A stretch of 64,000 nt of DNA from Bacteriovorax sp. MedPE-SWde (GTDB taxonomy: Bacteria > Bdellovibrionota > Bacteriovoracia > Bacteriovoracales > Bacteriovoracaceae). The stretch spans positions 124,001 to 188,000 of the forward strand of contig MPCU01000002.1 of NCBI GenBank assembly GCA_001874305.1, given 5' to 3'. Below the pieces are notes generated by a model. It was given only the letters and a program-made list of their open reading frames with translations. It was not told the DNA's origin and searched no databases. Made by a program: the position numbers and the translations under genes. Shown piece after piece: positions 2,561 through 16,757 of this stretch. How positions within the stretch are numbered: position 1 is the first letter of the stretch; the number at the start of each line of letters is the position of its first letter.

Positions 2561-3334
2561 ATGAAAAAAATATTACTACTTCTCTTAATCTCAAGTTACA
2601 CATATGCTTTCACACTAGTAGGAAGTTCAATTGCCGTTTTTGAAGAAGGTGACATTACTGTTAACGTTGGCGCCCAAGCGTGTACAAACGTTACAGATTC
2701 TCCTGACGAACTCCTCAATCTTGTCAGTGAAGCAACAGAGAAGTTTTGGAATAGGGTTTCTACGAGTGAGTTAGAGCTTCAAGTAGGATCACTGCAAACT
2801 ATTTCCGCTTCATTTTACACAGATCAAATTTGTAGCTCAGGTGCCGGTTGTGTTCCAGCAGTAAGCTCGGGAATCTTAATAGTCTGTAATAGTAATACAA
2901 CAACATTTAATTCCGCGTCTAAGCTTGCCGTTGCACTTCCTAACAATGTCTCGGGAAGTAATATAGTAGGTGCTATAGTTGCAATCAACGATGCTGCAGG
3001 TACTTCATTTAATACACAAACTAGAGAAGAGAAAATCTCTGTTCTCGCACATGAAATAGGACATGCGTTTGGACTTGGTCATTCTAAATTTAAAGACTCT
3101 CTTATGTTCCCGGCAAATCAATCAGGTAGAACAAATCTAGGTAGAGATGACTGGGATGGGGCCACTTTCCTCTATCCTAAAGAACAAGGGCCAATGGGAC
3201 TTTGCGGTACTACTACTGACGTAAGTAAGTCTGGGCCAGGTAATTATCCTACTGTACTACTTTTATTATTTGGATTATTTCTTATAGGTAACCAAATTAT
3301 GAGAGGTAAGAAGCTTTTTGTTAAAATAAATTAA
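2561..3334 (+). CDS. Secreted matrixin-like zinc metalloprotease (M10 type)
   Basis: The 257-residue protein has a clear signal peptide (MKKILLLLLISSYTYA) and the metzincin zinc site HEIGHAFGLGH with zinc ligands H164, H168 and H174 and catalytic E165. A Met-turn candidate follows (DSLMFP). Four cysteines in the mature domain suggest disulfides. A hydrophobic stretch near the C-terminus (TVLLLLFGLFLIG) followed by basic residues looks like a membrane anchor or sorting tail. It is coupled to the upstream barrel protein. In a predator such an enzyme could digest prey envelope or periplasmic protein, but that role is inferred only from context. Confidence 0.88.
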   Translation: MKKILLLLLISSYTYAFTLVGSSIAVFEEGDITVNVGAQACTNVTDSPDELLNLVSEATEKFWNRVSTSELELQVGSLQTISASFYTDQICSSGAGCVPAVSSGILIVCNSNTTTFNSASKLAVALPNNVSGSNIVGAIVAINDAAGTSFNTQTREEKISVLAHEIGHAFGLGHSKFKDSLMFPANQSGRTNLGRDDWDGATFLYPKEQGPMGLCGTTTDVSKSGPGNYPTVLLLLFGLFLIGNQIMRGKKLFVKIN

Positions 3335-3370
3335 TAATTATCAATTTATTTCCCTTAAGTTTTTGAAAAT

Positions 3371-3517
3371 ATGTCCGAAAAGGTAGTTGATATGAAAACT
3401 ACCGGAATGAAAGTTATATTTTTAATTATTGGACTCTTTATCTTTAAGATATCTGTTGCGGATACTGTAAGATTAAATCAAAATCAAAAGACGTCTTCAG
3501 TTAGAATTGGAAAATAG
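3371..3517 (+). CDS. Possible small exported protein
   Basis: A 48-codon frame, or 41 codons from the internal ATG at 3392, which has AGG about eight bases upstream. It encodes a signal-like hydrophobic segment (VIFLIIGLFIFKISVA) and a short polar tail. It lies after the metalloprotease and its 3' end overlaps the stop of convergent murD by about 20 bases. No family is recognised. Support is only the signal-peptide shape and the position, so it may be spurious. Confidence 0.3.
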   Translation: MSEKVVDMKTTGMKVIFLIIGLFIFKISVADTVRLNQNQKTSSVRIGK

Positions 3518-13640: not shown

Positions 13641-14411
13641 ATGGAAAAATGGGCGTTGATAACAGGATCGAGTTCAGGGATAGGAAAAGCTATTAGCTAT
13701 GAGTTAGCTAAGAAGAACTATTCAATCATTCTTCATGGTAGAAATACAGAAATACTCCACAGCATTGCTGCCGACATTGAAGATTGCTACAAGGTTCAAA
13801 CAAAGGTTATTAATGTTGACCTTAGTGAAGACAATGCAATTGAAACGATTCTCACTCTCACTGAATATCAAAATATAGAAGTCTTAGTTAATAATGCAGG
13901 TTTTGGAGTTGCAGGTGCATATAATGCCACAGATATAGAAGCTGAACTCAAGATGGTTAAGGTCCATGTCACGGCCCCCATGTATCTCATAAAGAGTTTT
14001 GCTAACAAAATGAAAAACAATGGCAAAGGACATATATTAAATGTATCAAGTCTCTACTCTTACTTTTCAGTACCAAAACAAGCAATCTATGGCGCATCAA
14101 AAGCTTTCCAACATTCATTCTCTAAGGCCTTAAATGAAGAGCTTAAAACTCAGGGAATCCATGTTAGTTCTCTATGTCCTGGCTTAACATATTCAAAGTT
14201 TAGAACGAGACAAGGAAAGAAAGAGAAGAAATACTTAATTGGAATGACTAGCGAAGAGGTCGCAAAAATCGCTGTTAAGGGACTCTTTAAAAAGAAAGTA
14301 TCAATTGTTCCAGGGATATTTAATAAATTCATGGCCTTTACAATACCTAAGCTTCCAGACAGATTGGCCTTGGTTATAATACATAAGATGAATAAGGGAC
14401 GAGGGTTTTAG
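13641..14411 (+). CDS. Short-chain dehydrogenase/reductase
   Basis: A classical SDR of 256 residues. It has the NAD(P)-binding TGSSSGIGKA loop near the N-terminus, NNAGFG, a catalytic serine in LNVSSLY and the Y-x-x-x-K pair in YGASKAF. HGRN after the second strand suggests NADP preference. The C-terminus is basic, and substrate specificity cannot be read from sequence. A ribosome site (AGGGAG) precedes the ATG. It is monocistronic and convergent with the ECF operon; the two stops are two bases apart. Confidence 0.93.
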   Translation: MEKWALITGSSSGIGKAISYELAKKNYSIILHGRNTEILHSIAADIEDCYKVQTKVINVDLSEDNAIETILTLTEYQNIEVLVNNAGFGVAGAYNATDIEAELKMVKVHVTAPMYLIKSFANKMKNNGKGHILNVSSLYSYFSVPKQAIYGASKAFQHSFSKALNEELKTQGIHVSSLCPGLTYSKFRTRQGKKEKKYLIGMTSEEVAKIAVKGLFKKKVSIVPGIFNKFMAFTIPKLPDRLALVIIHKMNKGRGF

Positions 14412-14412
14412 T

Positions 14413-15213
14413 TTAAAAGCTTAATGTTGAACTTAGCCCATAATAGAAAGAATCATTAAGGTTCTCATAGTCAATAAGCGCCGCTAGAGACAACTTTGAA
14501 GACAGATCATAGCTAAGTCTAGAAAAGTAATAAAACTCTTTTTCTGAGATATTTTGAAAATCACTGTGATCTAGCCCAATAAAGACATTAATAGACCTGT
14601 ACTTGTGATTTATAGAAATACTCTTAGTGCTTTGAATTAGACCATATGTTGAAATATTAGATAGTGCCCGAGAAAAACTTCCATTTAAAGTAACTTTAAT
14701 ATCAGAGTCATCTTTGTAGGAATATTGTTTGTAGCTGACTTTTACTTCAGACTGAGGAAGAAATAAGTATGCAAGAGCAATCTGTCCTTGGAACTTTTTA
14801 TAGTCCTCATCACCATTGAATTGAAGACTCTGAACTTCACTATCAATATCTTTTTTGAATCTTATATACCCTAAGCCAGAAGATAAGGTGATCTTAGAGC
14901 TGTGAAAAATACGCAATAGTATATCTGCCCCAAGACCTTTTCTATTCTTATTATCGCGAACAAATAGTAATGTTGGTGAAAAGCTATAGTCGTCAGATAT
15001 ATGATCTAGCCAAATTGCAGAACTCTTCTCTTTGCGGTTACGTTTTAATGAATCAATAGTTTGTGAAAATCCATAACTATAGCTTTCATTATACTCATTA
15101 GAAAAAGCGAAACTGTAGGACTCCGAGCCCTCTCCACCATTTCGAAAGGAGAGATCAAGACTTCCGGCAAGGCAAAGCTGAGTTGTCCAAAAAAGCAGAG
15201 CGAGAATTCGCAT
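14413..15213 (-). CDS. Outer-membrane barrel-like protein, last gene of the ECF operon
   Basis: 266 residues with a signal peptide (MRILALLFWTTQLCLAGS). The rest is repeated amphipathic strands rich in Ser, Tyr and Asp with short turns, ending in a strand with terminal Phe (YYGLSSTLSF), the usual last-strand signature for barrel assembly. No family is recognised. It starts one base after the stop of the DUF3106-type gene and is the fifth gene of an operon led by an ECF sigma factor, so an envelope role under sigma control is likely. Confidence 0.72.
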   Translation of the reverse strand: MRILALLFWTTQLCLAGSLDLSFRNGGEGSESYSFAFSNEYNESYSYGFSQTIDSLKRNRKEKSSAIWLDHISDDYSFSPTLLFVRDNKNRKGLGADILLRIFHSSKITLSSGLGYIRFKKDIDSEVQSLQFNGDEDYKKFQGQIALAYLFLPQSEVKVSYKQYSYKDDSDIKVTLNGSFSRALSNISTYGLIQSTKSISINHKYRSINVFIGLDHSDFQNISEKEFYYFSRLSYDLSSKLSLAALIDYENLNDSFYYGLSSTLSF

Positions 15214-15214
15214 A

Positions 15215-15598
15215 TTAACGACGACCGCTACGTCTATTAGTTCTCTTTTTAAACTTCTTAACTCTATTCTGTCTTTGTAGTTTAGTCATATTTCTAAATT
15301 TCTTCATTCTCTTTAGAAACTTAGCTCTCTTTTCAGGAGACATCTTCTGGATCTTGATCCATCTCTTTTTCATCTTCATTTTTTCATCTGAAGAGAGAGT
15401 ATTATATTTTTTGAATCTCTTTTTTAGTGTTTCCTTTTTCTCTGGAGAGAGCTTCTTCCACTTTGAAAAGTTCTTTTTCAAAACTTGTTTTTGTTGAGGT
15501 GAAAGAGAGTTCCACTTTTCAAGCTTCTCTTCTTTTGACAGGGCAAAAGCTCCAGAACTAAGTATTGTAAAAACTAATGACAGTATAATCGCCTTCAT
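15215..15598 (-). CDS. Exported very basic DUF3106-type protein
   Basis: 127 residues: a signal peptide (to about residue 19) and then four or five imperfect repeats of about 17-20 residues built on the pattern W-x-x-L-S-P-E-x-K (SPQQKQVL, SPEKKETL, SSDEKMKM, SPEKRAKF). Lys and Arg make up an exceptional share of the mature part. The repeat resembles DUF3106 proteins, which I recall occurring next to ECF sigma factors in other Proteobacteria. It is translationally coupled to the acidic small gene upstream (TAATG). It is probably a periplasmic helical protein that acts with the anti-sigma module. Confidence 0.78.
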   Translation of the reverse strand: MKAIILSLVFTILSSGAFALSKEEKLEKWNSLSPQQKQVLKKNFSKWKKLSPEKKETLKKRFKKYNTLSSDEKMKMKKRWIKIQKMSPEKRAKFLKRMKKFRNMTKLQRQNRVKKFKKRTNRRSGRR

Positions 15599-15798
15599 TA
15601 TTCAAACTCCATTTTAGATTCGTTATTTTCAGTATTAAGAGAGCGCTCGTCGATATTTATCACTTCCCAATTCGAATCTTCTAATAGCTCCATTGATTCC
15701 AGGAACTCAATATTTTCAATAATTTGTAACTCTTCACTTTCTGCATTTATAGATAAGCAAACTAGCGCTAATAAAAGAAAGTAACGTCTAACCTTCAT
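15598..15798 (-). CDS. Small exported acidic protein of the ECF operon
   Basis: 66 residues from the ATG at 15798, which has GAGGA upstream; the frame could extend to 15825. A signal peptide (RRYFLLLALVCLSINA) is followed by a strongly acidic tail containing QIIENIEFLESMELLED. That segment resembles DILENVELLANMD in the periplasmic tail of the anti-sigma candidate encoded just upstream, so it looks like a soluble copy of part of that tail. It overlaps both neighbours by a few bases and is clearly co-translated. No named family. Confidence 0.7.
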   Translation of the reverse strand: MKVRRYFLLLALVCLSINAESEELQIIENIEFLESMELLEDSNWEVINIDERSLNTENNESKMEFE

Positions 15799-16141
15799 CT
15801 GTCTTATCCTCAAGTTCTTCATCACTCATAAGAAGCTCAAACTCATCTTCTGTCAGCTCGTTAACTTCGTTTGCAACATCCATATTGGCCAACAGCTCAA
15901 CATTTTCGAGAATATCAATTTCAGCCACACGATCTAACTCTGGTGCTTCATATTGAATTGTATATACAAAGAGAGCTGTAACGAAAGAAAAGGCAAAAGC
16001 ACTCTTCCAAATAATTTGTCGAGAAGATCTTTGGTTAGATTTCAAATTTCTTGTGAAGGCATAGAAGCTAGAATCAAGCTCTTTAGGATAGTCTCTTTTT
16101 AGATTCTCTCTTAAAACCTCTTCAATATTTTTCTTACTCAT
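15788..16141 (-). CDS. Probable membrane anti-sigma factor
   Basis: 117 residues from the ATG at 16141, whose ribosome site GGGAG lies inside the end of the sigma gene. Residues 1-45 are cytoplasmic and charged, about 47-65 form one membrane segment (AFAFSFVTALFVYTI), and about 70-117 are an acidic tail predicted to be periplasmic. One membrane span plus direct overlap with an ECF sigma gene is the usual anti-sigma arrangement. No zinc-binding ZAS motif is visible, so it is not of the standard zinc anti-sigma type. Function is inferred from context. Confidence 0.68.
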   Translation of the reverse strand: MSKKNIEEVLRENLKRDYPKELDSSFYAFTRNLKSNQRSSRQIIWKSAFAFSFVTALFVYTIQYEAPELDRVAEIDILENVELLANMDVANEVNELTEDEFELLMSDEELEDKTDEG

Positions 16142-16757
16142 GGGACTCTCCCATACAGTTCTCAACACATTTTTTTAGTGCTGACTTGCCTTTGTTTATT
16201 AATGCTTTTATCGAACTCACAGTTTTATCCATAATTTCTGAAATTTCATCATAACTATTCTCACTAAATATTCTCAGGTTTAGTGCTTCTTTGTAGTTTG
16301 GATTTAGCTCTTCAAAACACTTTAATAGTATTTCCTTCTTGATTTTACCGTCAAGAAGCTCATCCATACTATCTCCCTCATCTGGAACAGAATTAAGTAG
16401 TTGTCCTTCATTGCGATCTTCGGAGTCTGAATACTTCAAAGGATCCTTCTTTCTTAAGAGGTCAATTGTTGTATTTCTGGCCAAAGTCCATATCCAAGTA
16501 CTGACTTTATATTCAGTACGATACATCTTTCTATTCTTATAAACCTTAACGAAGGTATCTTGAACAAGCTCCATAGCTTCATGATCAGTAGAAACGGTGT
16601 TTCTAACGTAGTTATAGAGAGAGTTCTTCAATCTTTCATAGAGAACCTCATATGCTTGGATATCATCTTCCTGAGTAAGTACCATTAGTTCCTCACTGGT
16701 CTTACCTTGGTATACGTGATCCGGTGCAATAAGTTTCTTAAAAAATGCAAATTTCAT
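16134..16757 (-). CDS. ECF-type RNA polymerase sigma factor
   Basis: A 207-residue sigma-70 family member with only regions 2 and 4. Region 2 includes MELVQDTFVKVYKN and the -10-recognising segment TWIWTLARNTTIDLLRKK. Region 4 carries the helix-turn-helix YDEISEIMDKTVSSIKALINKGKSALKK. An N-terminal extension of about 25 residues precedes region 2. It leads a tightly overlapping five-gene operon with a putative anti-sigma factor, so it probably responds to an envelope signal. The stimulus cannot be read from the sequence. Confidence 0.93.
   Translation of the reverse strand: MKFAFFKKLIAPDHVYQGKTSEELMVLTQEDDIQAYEVLYERLKNSLYNYVRNTVSTDHEAMELVQDTFVKVYKNRKMYRTEYKVSTWIWTLARNTTIDLLRKKDPLKYSDSEDRNEGQLLNSVPDEGDSMDELLDGKIKKEILLKCFEELNPNYKEALNLRIFSENSYDEISEIMDKTVSSIKALINKGKSALKKCVENCMGESHE

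Follow-up and report, generated by a model that had tools for sequence, protein, structure and literature searches.

An ECF sigma factor operon encoding a basic DUF3106 protein and a small acidic protein that repeats the outer-tail motif of the candidate anti-sigma factor

Introduction

The metal-sensing CnrH-CnrY-CnrX system consists of an ECF sigma factor, a membrane anti-sigma factor and a helical periplasmic partner. Periplasmic proteins of the Spy/CpxP (LTXXQ) type contain helices that begin with L-S/T-P-x-Q-like turns. In the RpoE-RseA-RseB system, RseB binds to the outer domain of RseA and protects RseA from proteolysis, as described in passages of PMC8103513. According to parts of PMC4273604, the complexes PaoABC and HybOC carry a Tat signal on one partner only and are exported together, PaoB and PaoC riding with PaoA.

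The operon described here lies in a 64-kb stretch of DNA (hereafter the window), and like the CnrH-CnrY-CnrX operon it encodes an ECF sigma factor, a membrane anti-sigma candidate and a predicted helical periplasmic partner, in this case a DUF3106 protein that gave no Pfam match to the CnrX or LTXXQ families at E values up to 1. The DUF3106 helices begin with L-S/T-P-x-Q-like turns, as in Spy/CpxP, whereas the LTXXQ profile does not match and the structural match to Spy is weak. The combination of ECF sigma factor, membrane anti-sigma factor and periplasmic protein also resembles the RpoE-RseA-RseB operon as passages of PMC8103513 present it, and binding of the periplasmic protein to the anti-sigma tail is proposed here as well. 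In contrast to that system, the DUF3106 protein is a predicted helical repeat, the operon additionally encodes the tail motif in soluble form, and the window proteins showed no Pfam or NCBIfam match to RseA-type or RseB-type domains at E values up to 1. Finally, Tat-type operons of this phylum resemble the hitchhiker pairs in having the signal on the DUF3106 protein only (24/24), for which joint export is proposed; unlike the pairs in the relevant parts of PMC4273604, the pairing here was read from sequence, and the window operon belongs to the Sec class.

As far as the sequence tells, the soluble copy of the anti-sigma tail is an unusual addition to the scheme of ECF sigma factor, anti-sigma factor and periplasmic partner. 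No publication naming DUF3106, PF11304 or DUF3619 was found in open-licence PMC; mentions may still exist in tables or in subscription papers. Titles and abstract openings of the open-licence PMC literature on Bdellovibrio with ECF and anti-sigma factors contained nothing evidently related, and the open-licence PMC listings on peptide mimics that compete with anti-sigma factors contained nothing resembling this system.

Results

Layout of the operon

Open reading frames and Pfam searches of the window yielded a compact five-gene operon, as the first-pass annotation had described, entirely on the minus strand and in the order ECF sigma factor, anti-sigma candidate, small acidic protein, DUF3106 protein and barrel-like protein:

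16134..16757, minus strand: ECF-type sigma factor, 207 aa (Sigma70_r2, 56.6 bits; Sigma70_r4_2, 39.5 bits; TIGR02937, 98.8 bits)
15788..16168, minus strand: anti-sigma candidate with a cytoplasmic N-terminal part, one membrane helix and a 58-aa acidic outer tail (position after sigma in homologous operons)
15863..15922, minus strand: motif A of the anti-sigma tail, EIDILENVELLANMDVANEV (small-protein PSSM with own operon excluded, p 0.006; hhalign)
15830..15856, minus strand: second acidic-aromatic box of the anti-sigma tail, LTEDEFELL (aligns with conserved L-S/T-D/E-E-D-W boxes of relatives)
15598..15825, minus strand: small exported acidic protein (signal-peptide-like N-terminus; relatives at 52 phylum-set loci, window counted)
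15673..15732, minus strand: motif A of the small protein, ELQIIENIEFLESMELLEDS (motif discovery on 52 small proteins)
15658..15678, minus strand: second box of the small protein, DSNWEVI (such a box in 14/52 small proteins, shuffled mean 4.0)
15215..15598, minus strand: DUF3106 protein (PF11304), basic, with five 18-residue helical repeats (Pfam, 56.1 bits; AlphaFold2)
14413..15213, minus strand: exported outer-membrane barrel-like protein, 266 aa, C-terminal F (position and C-terminal aromatic residue common to relatives)

By its domain content the first product is an ECF sigma factor, with sigma-70 regions 2 and 4 both above the Pfam cut-offs, no other sigma region, and TIGR02937 over its cut-off. 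The second gene likely encodes a membrane anti-sigma factor, given its short cytoplasmic part, its single helix, called from hydropathy alone, and its place directly after the sigma gene. Translation of this candidate likely starts at ATG 16141, overlapping the sigma stop, and that of the small acidic protein at ATG 15798, overlapping the anti-sigma stop. The DUF3106 gene overlaps the small gene by one base and is separated from the barrel-like gene by a 1-base gap, so that the coordinates bear out the tight arrangement reported earlier, with overlaps or one-base contacts and gaps throughout. A short-chain dehydrogenase gene on the opposite strand ends at 14411.

The DUF3106 match, PF11304, lies well over its cut-off of 24.3 bits; no Pfam family passed its cut-off for the anti-sigma candidate, the small protein or the barrel-like protein. 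The contrast of charges that had drawn attention to the locus is present in all three proteins: the anti-sigma tail carries a net charge of -19 over 58 aa, the small protein -14 over 47 aa from residue 29, and the DUF3106 protein +35 over 107 aa from residue 21. The module is single-copy in the source genome, and a search of that genome for second copies of the small protein gave none that was convincing.

Distribution of the module

DUF3106 matches were found in 25/129 genomes of the family and 62/368 of the phylum. Of six genomes of the genus, the source genome counted, one has a match, and 3 of the other five are <90% complete. Removal of three of the 62 phylum loci with a DUF3106 call, in which the DUF3106 gene was unclear (L099, L113 and L146), left 59; L095, cut by a contig end, had no DUF3106 call. 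A sigma gene was recognised in the fetched stretch at 55 of the 59, the four others being L087, whose contig starts there, L116, L130 and L136. The small acidic gene precedes the DUF3106 gene in 52 of the 59 loci. For the set of small proteins, L113, L130 and L146 were dropped and L092, L137 and L145 added by hand.

A scan of named genomes supplied 69 further loci, 7 of Bdellovibrionota type and 62 from other groups, among them Gammaproteobacteria, Rokubacteria, Desulfobacterota-type and Myxococcota-type bacteria and Burkholderiales. A sigma gene lies upstream in 58 of these 62 non-phylum loci, and a small acidic gene was read by eye in 32 of the 58, a slight undercount, as at least L162 and L165 have the small gene and were scored absent. 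Because the module recurs across the phylum and in other groups, the window operon is one instance of a widespread module.

An acidic motif shared by the small protein and the anti-sigma tail

Motif discovery on the 52 small proteins gave, roughly, D-x-E-[IM]-[IL]-K-[ND]-L-[DE]-[FL]-[FLY]-x-[SN]-[ML]-[ED]-[LV]-[LI]-x-x-E. When a profile of this motif was run against the anti-sigma tails of the phylum DUF3106 operons, with the small protein of each operon excluded and p values taken from shuffles of the same tail, 43/54 tails matched at p<0.05 and 32/54 at p<0.01, 11/54 missing the p<0.05 level; the cytoplasmic parts of the same proteins, used as the control, matched in 2/54 (p<0.05). Conservation of the motif across orthologous operons, on which the first-pass annotation had staked its proposal, thus holds in most DUF3106 operons of the phylum. 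Among nine related sigma loci with no DUF3106 gene in the fetched stretch, two tails matched (L109 and L151); one of the nine, L086, lies at a contig end, and the DUF3106 gene of its genome is on another contig. Motif-bearing tails in the phylum therefore mostly sit in DUF3106 operons.

Aligning the profile of 24 small proteins to that of 17 anti-sigma proteins (hhalign) gave a probability of 75 and an E value of 2.5e-5 over 22 columns, and the aligned segments, LQIIENIEFLESMELLEDSNWE and IDILENVELLANMDVANEVN, are precisely the pair flagged in the first-pass annotation, whose claim that the small protein repeats the anti-sigma tail motif is thereby upheld. On rerunning the same alignments the score was 32.9, and the highest of the column-shuffled controls was 18.9 (0/200 as high). 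Since the two segments of the window taken alone are only modestly alike (p 0.020, 5000 shuffles), the case for the likeness rests on the families.

A second box, acidic and with a tryptophan, is present in 28/54 tails (shuffled mean 8.4, maximum 16) and in 14/52 small proteins (shuffled mean 4.0, maximum 11); the window tail is outside the 28 because it has F where most relatives have W. Chance or composition as the source of the likeness was ruled out by the leave-one-out profile, second-box and column-shuffle controls. Outside the phylum, where 26 of the 28 small proteins listed and 33 anti-sigma candidates entered the test, the result was weak: 7/13 tails matched in loci with the small gene and 4/20 in loci without it, with controls at 1/13 and 7/20.

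Charge, repeat number and predicted fold of the DUF3106 protein

Median net charges in the phylum are +21 for the DUF3106 protein, -11 for the small protein from the motif onward and -14 for the tails, with extremes that approach zero (DUF3106 minimum, -1). Repeat number varies with the small gene: where this gene is present in the phylum, the DUF3106 protein has 4-6 repeats (50/50), and where it is absent, 2-3 repeats (6/6, in the three lineages g49, g16 and g115), a count that leaves out L088 (cut), L092 (internal stop) and L130. Outside the phylum, the 32 loci with and the 26 without the small gene have medians of 6 and 6 repeats (p 0.24); most Xanthomonadaceae and Burkholderiales loci without the small gene have few repeats.

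AlphaFold2, given the window DUF3106 protein and 31 relatives, returned a model with a mean pLDDT of 88.3, and of 93-97 across most of the mature part, in which helices of ~15 residues are separated by 3-residue turns, giving a repeat of 18. The protein is thus predicted to be an alpha-helical repeat rod. Searches for solved relatives yielded none that was convincing by sequence (best E 0.02), and Foldseek against the PDB nothing convincing for this protein (best E 2.2 for any chain). Among 22 aligned chains, Spy (5wo1) matched the model weakly, with a Z of 2.8 over 36 residues.

Export signals and the arrival of the small protein

In the phylum, DUF3106 proteins with a Tat signal are accompanied by small proteins without a signal peptide (24/24), and those with a Sec signal by small proteins with a signal of their own (27/27), with no mixed case among 51 classifiable operons (52 rows, L092 being unclassifiable). 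These classes, and the non-phylum tally, come from simple patterns rather than from a trained signal-peptide predictor, and the Tat/Sec rule was revised after its exceptions had been inspected. The first version gave 3 Sec/no-signal cases and 1 Tat/signal case, which by eye were faults of the rule: RR just beyond a narrow window in L131 and L144, a hydrophobic run after the motif in L135, and a wrong start in L145. On the sigma tree the signal type changes three times, in one large clade, in L144 and in L175, the last falling in Desulfobacterota-type bacteria, another phylum. With about three independent switches a sign test cannot reach 0.05, and no significance is claimed for the pairing. 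L216, from the Gammaproteobacteria, has the opposite pattern, a Tat-like DUF3106 protein with a signal-bearing small protein, and a further five loci outside the phylum were classed as Tat/signal.

The pairing is most simply explained if, in the Tat lineages, the small protein associates with the DUF3106 protein ahead of export and is carried along with it; lacking its own signal, it would, if periplasmic, presumably arrive already DUF3106-bound. The window operon is of the Sec type, with both the small protein and the DUF3106 protein exported by prediction. The signal region of its small protein contains RR and then Y-F-L, so that Tat export of this protein is possible; for small proteins the rule scored signal presence only.

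These patterns bear on two other ways of placing the small protein. In the titration sensor proposed in the first-pass annotation, the DUF3106 protein would have one site, from which the free small protein displaces the tail, setting the threshold of sigma release. The same motif stands in register in both proteins, by hhalign and shuffles, and the export of small protein and DUF3106 protein in the window makes such competition possible for Sec-type operons. However, the small protein cannot arrive free where it lacks its own signal, as in all 24 Tat-type operons, and in the phylum its loss accompanies repeat loss in the DUF3106 protein, and we therefore regard titration as unlikely. Alternatively, the small protein might merely be an escort, offsetting the charge of the basic DUF3106 protein while the latter is made and exported; its likeness to the tail would then reflect use of the same surface, and it would take no part in signalling. 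Signal-less small proteins in Tat-type operons would suit this role, as would the small gene/DUF3106 pairs of L116 and L136, where no sigma or anti-sigma gene was recognised in the fetched stretch. In Sec lineages, including the window, the small protein nevertheless carries a signal peptide of its own and, by prediction, functions once exported, which makes an escort function quite improbable. The L116 pair (2858-3495, minus strand) adjoins a gene for an uncharacterised exported product with many K, D and Q residues.

Neighbouring genes, upstream regions and a sister species

In a related operon (L160), the barrel-like protein was predicted from six sequences to have 14 strands, with a pLDDT of 82.4 for the best model and 41.9-74.4 for the other four, and the model matches OmpG and FadL-type barrels; the window barrel-like protein is 18% identical to it in that alignment. 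An ORF of 240-380 aa follows the DUF3106 gene in 30/58 loci with room for one, and in 23 of these 30 ORFs the last residue is F, W, Y or H, or the penultimate one is F or W.

In a sister species of the same genus (G004), whose sigma factor is 54% identical to that of the window and whose genome is 78% complete, no small gene, DUF3106 gene or barrel gene was seen at the corresponding locus (L109). The anti-sigma tail of this species (L109 2695-3045) resembles the window small protein (score 63, p 0.0005), and is less like the window's own tail (score 39, p 0.023), which could reflect fusion or plain divergence.

The frequent barrel-like ORF and the motif-like tail that G004 retains, with no DUF3106 gene found, would be expected if the shared helix bound the barrel protein, a site-1 protease or the Bam machinery, the DUF3106 protein being a separate element. 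On the other hand, the barrel-like ORF is absent in 28/58 loci, tails with the motif occur mainly in DUF3106 operons and DUF3106 repeat number is linked to the small gene, so that we give such a partner the least credence of the readings considered.

Upstream of sigma, 16/26 Sec-type loci (shuffled mean 0.3) and 0/23 Tat-type loci contain a AAAGTTTC-like element. In a search for signs of autoregulation it could not be fitted to an ECF promoter, and one guessed promoter pattern had no match in the source genome. Upstream of related sigma genes without DUF3106 (L149-L154), GAAACTTTT-like and then CGTATAA-like boxes were seen by eye in several cases; these look like ECF promoters. In many Tat-type operons (L112, L114, L115, L120-L122, L124-L129 and L132), the gene directly upstream of sigma encodes an exported lipoprotein-like protein of ~300 aa that ends in SYCE or a close variant, and this gene may belong to the operon at those loci. 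A small exported R/Q-rich protein takes its place before sigma in L117, L118, L119 and L133.

Discussion

We propose that the operon encodes an ECF sigma/membrane anti-sigma pair whose periplasmic partner has two parts. The basic-surfaced DUF3106 rod would bind acidic leucine-rich helices with the pattern L-E-N-x-E-F/L-L-x-x-M-E/D. The small protein, taken to be a permanent DUF3106 subunit, would supply one of them and the anti-sigma outer tail another, DUF3106 being an adaptor in the periplasm that accommodates this acidic helix twice, at distinct positions. While DUF3106 and its small subunit hold the tail, the anti-sigma factor would remain in a single state, probably shielded from a site-1 protease much as RseB shields RseA, and an envelope disturbance that alters the contact between DUF3106 and the tail would lead to sigma release. 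We put the probability of this two-site scaffold, with the small protein built in and the tail held at another place, at roughly 0.55.

The operon, the sharing of the motif, the predicted fold and the co-variation of export signals and repeat number were computed here. DUF3106 is the likely common partner of the two acidic helices because of the opposite charges, the export co-variation and the repeat number. The location of motif-bearing tails in DUF3106 operons, the small gene/DUF3106 pairs of L116 and L136 and the occurrence of the module far beyond the phylum also speak for the proposal. As evidence of binding, the opposite net charges are weak, and the patterns related to binding are weaker outside the phylum. 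That DUF3106 is the common receptor of small protein and tail seems to us, on these sequence patterns, rather probable. Given such binding, the small protein would with comparable probability be a permanent subunit rather than a free competitor: signal-less small proteins in Tat lineages and the loss of repeats with the small gene fit a subunit better. Of the earlier interpretation, the tail motif copied in the small protein and conserved has stood, whereas titration by a free competitor is now less favoured in view of the Tat signals and the repeat loss. More tentatively, receptor, decoy and anchor tail might form one ternary switch in several phyla, with cytoplasmic pre-assembly and Tat co-export in some lineages.

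ECF sigma factors are a main route by which envelope damage is sensed, and many have unknown sensors. The module described here is a widely distributed candidate sensor that combines a domain of unknown function, a defined motif and a predicted fold, and its signal-type switches and its gene losses accompanied by repeat losses are natural experiments. If our proposal is correct, a function would be assigned to DUF3106, and secreting a copy of the anti-sigma factor's tail would be a new trick in this kind of signalling.
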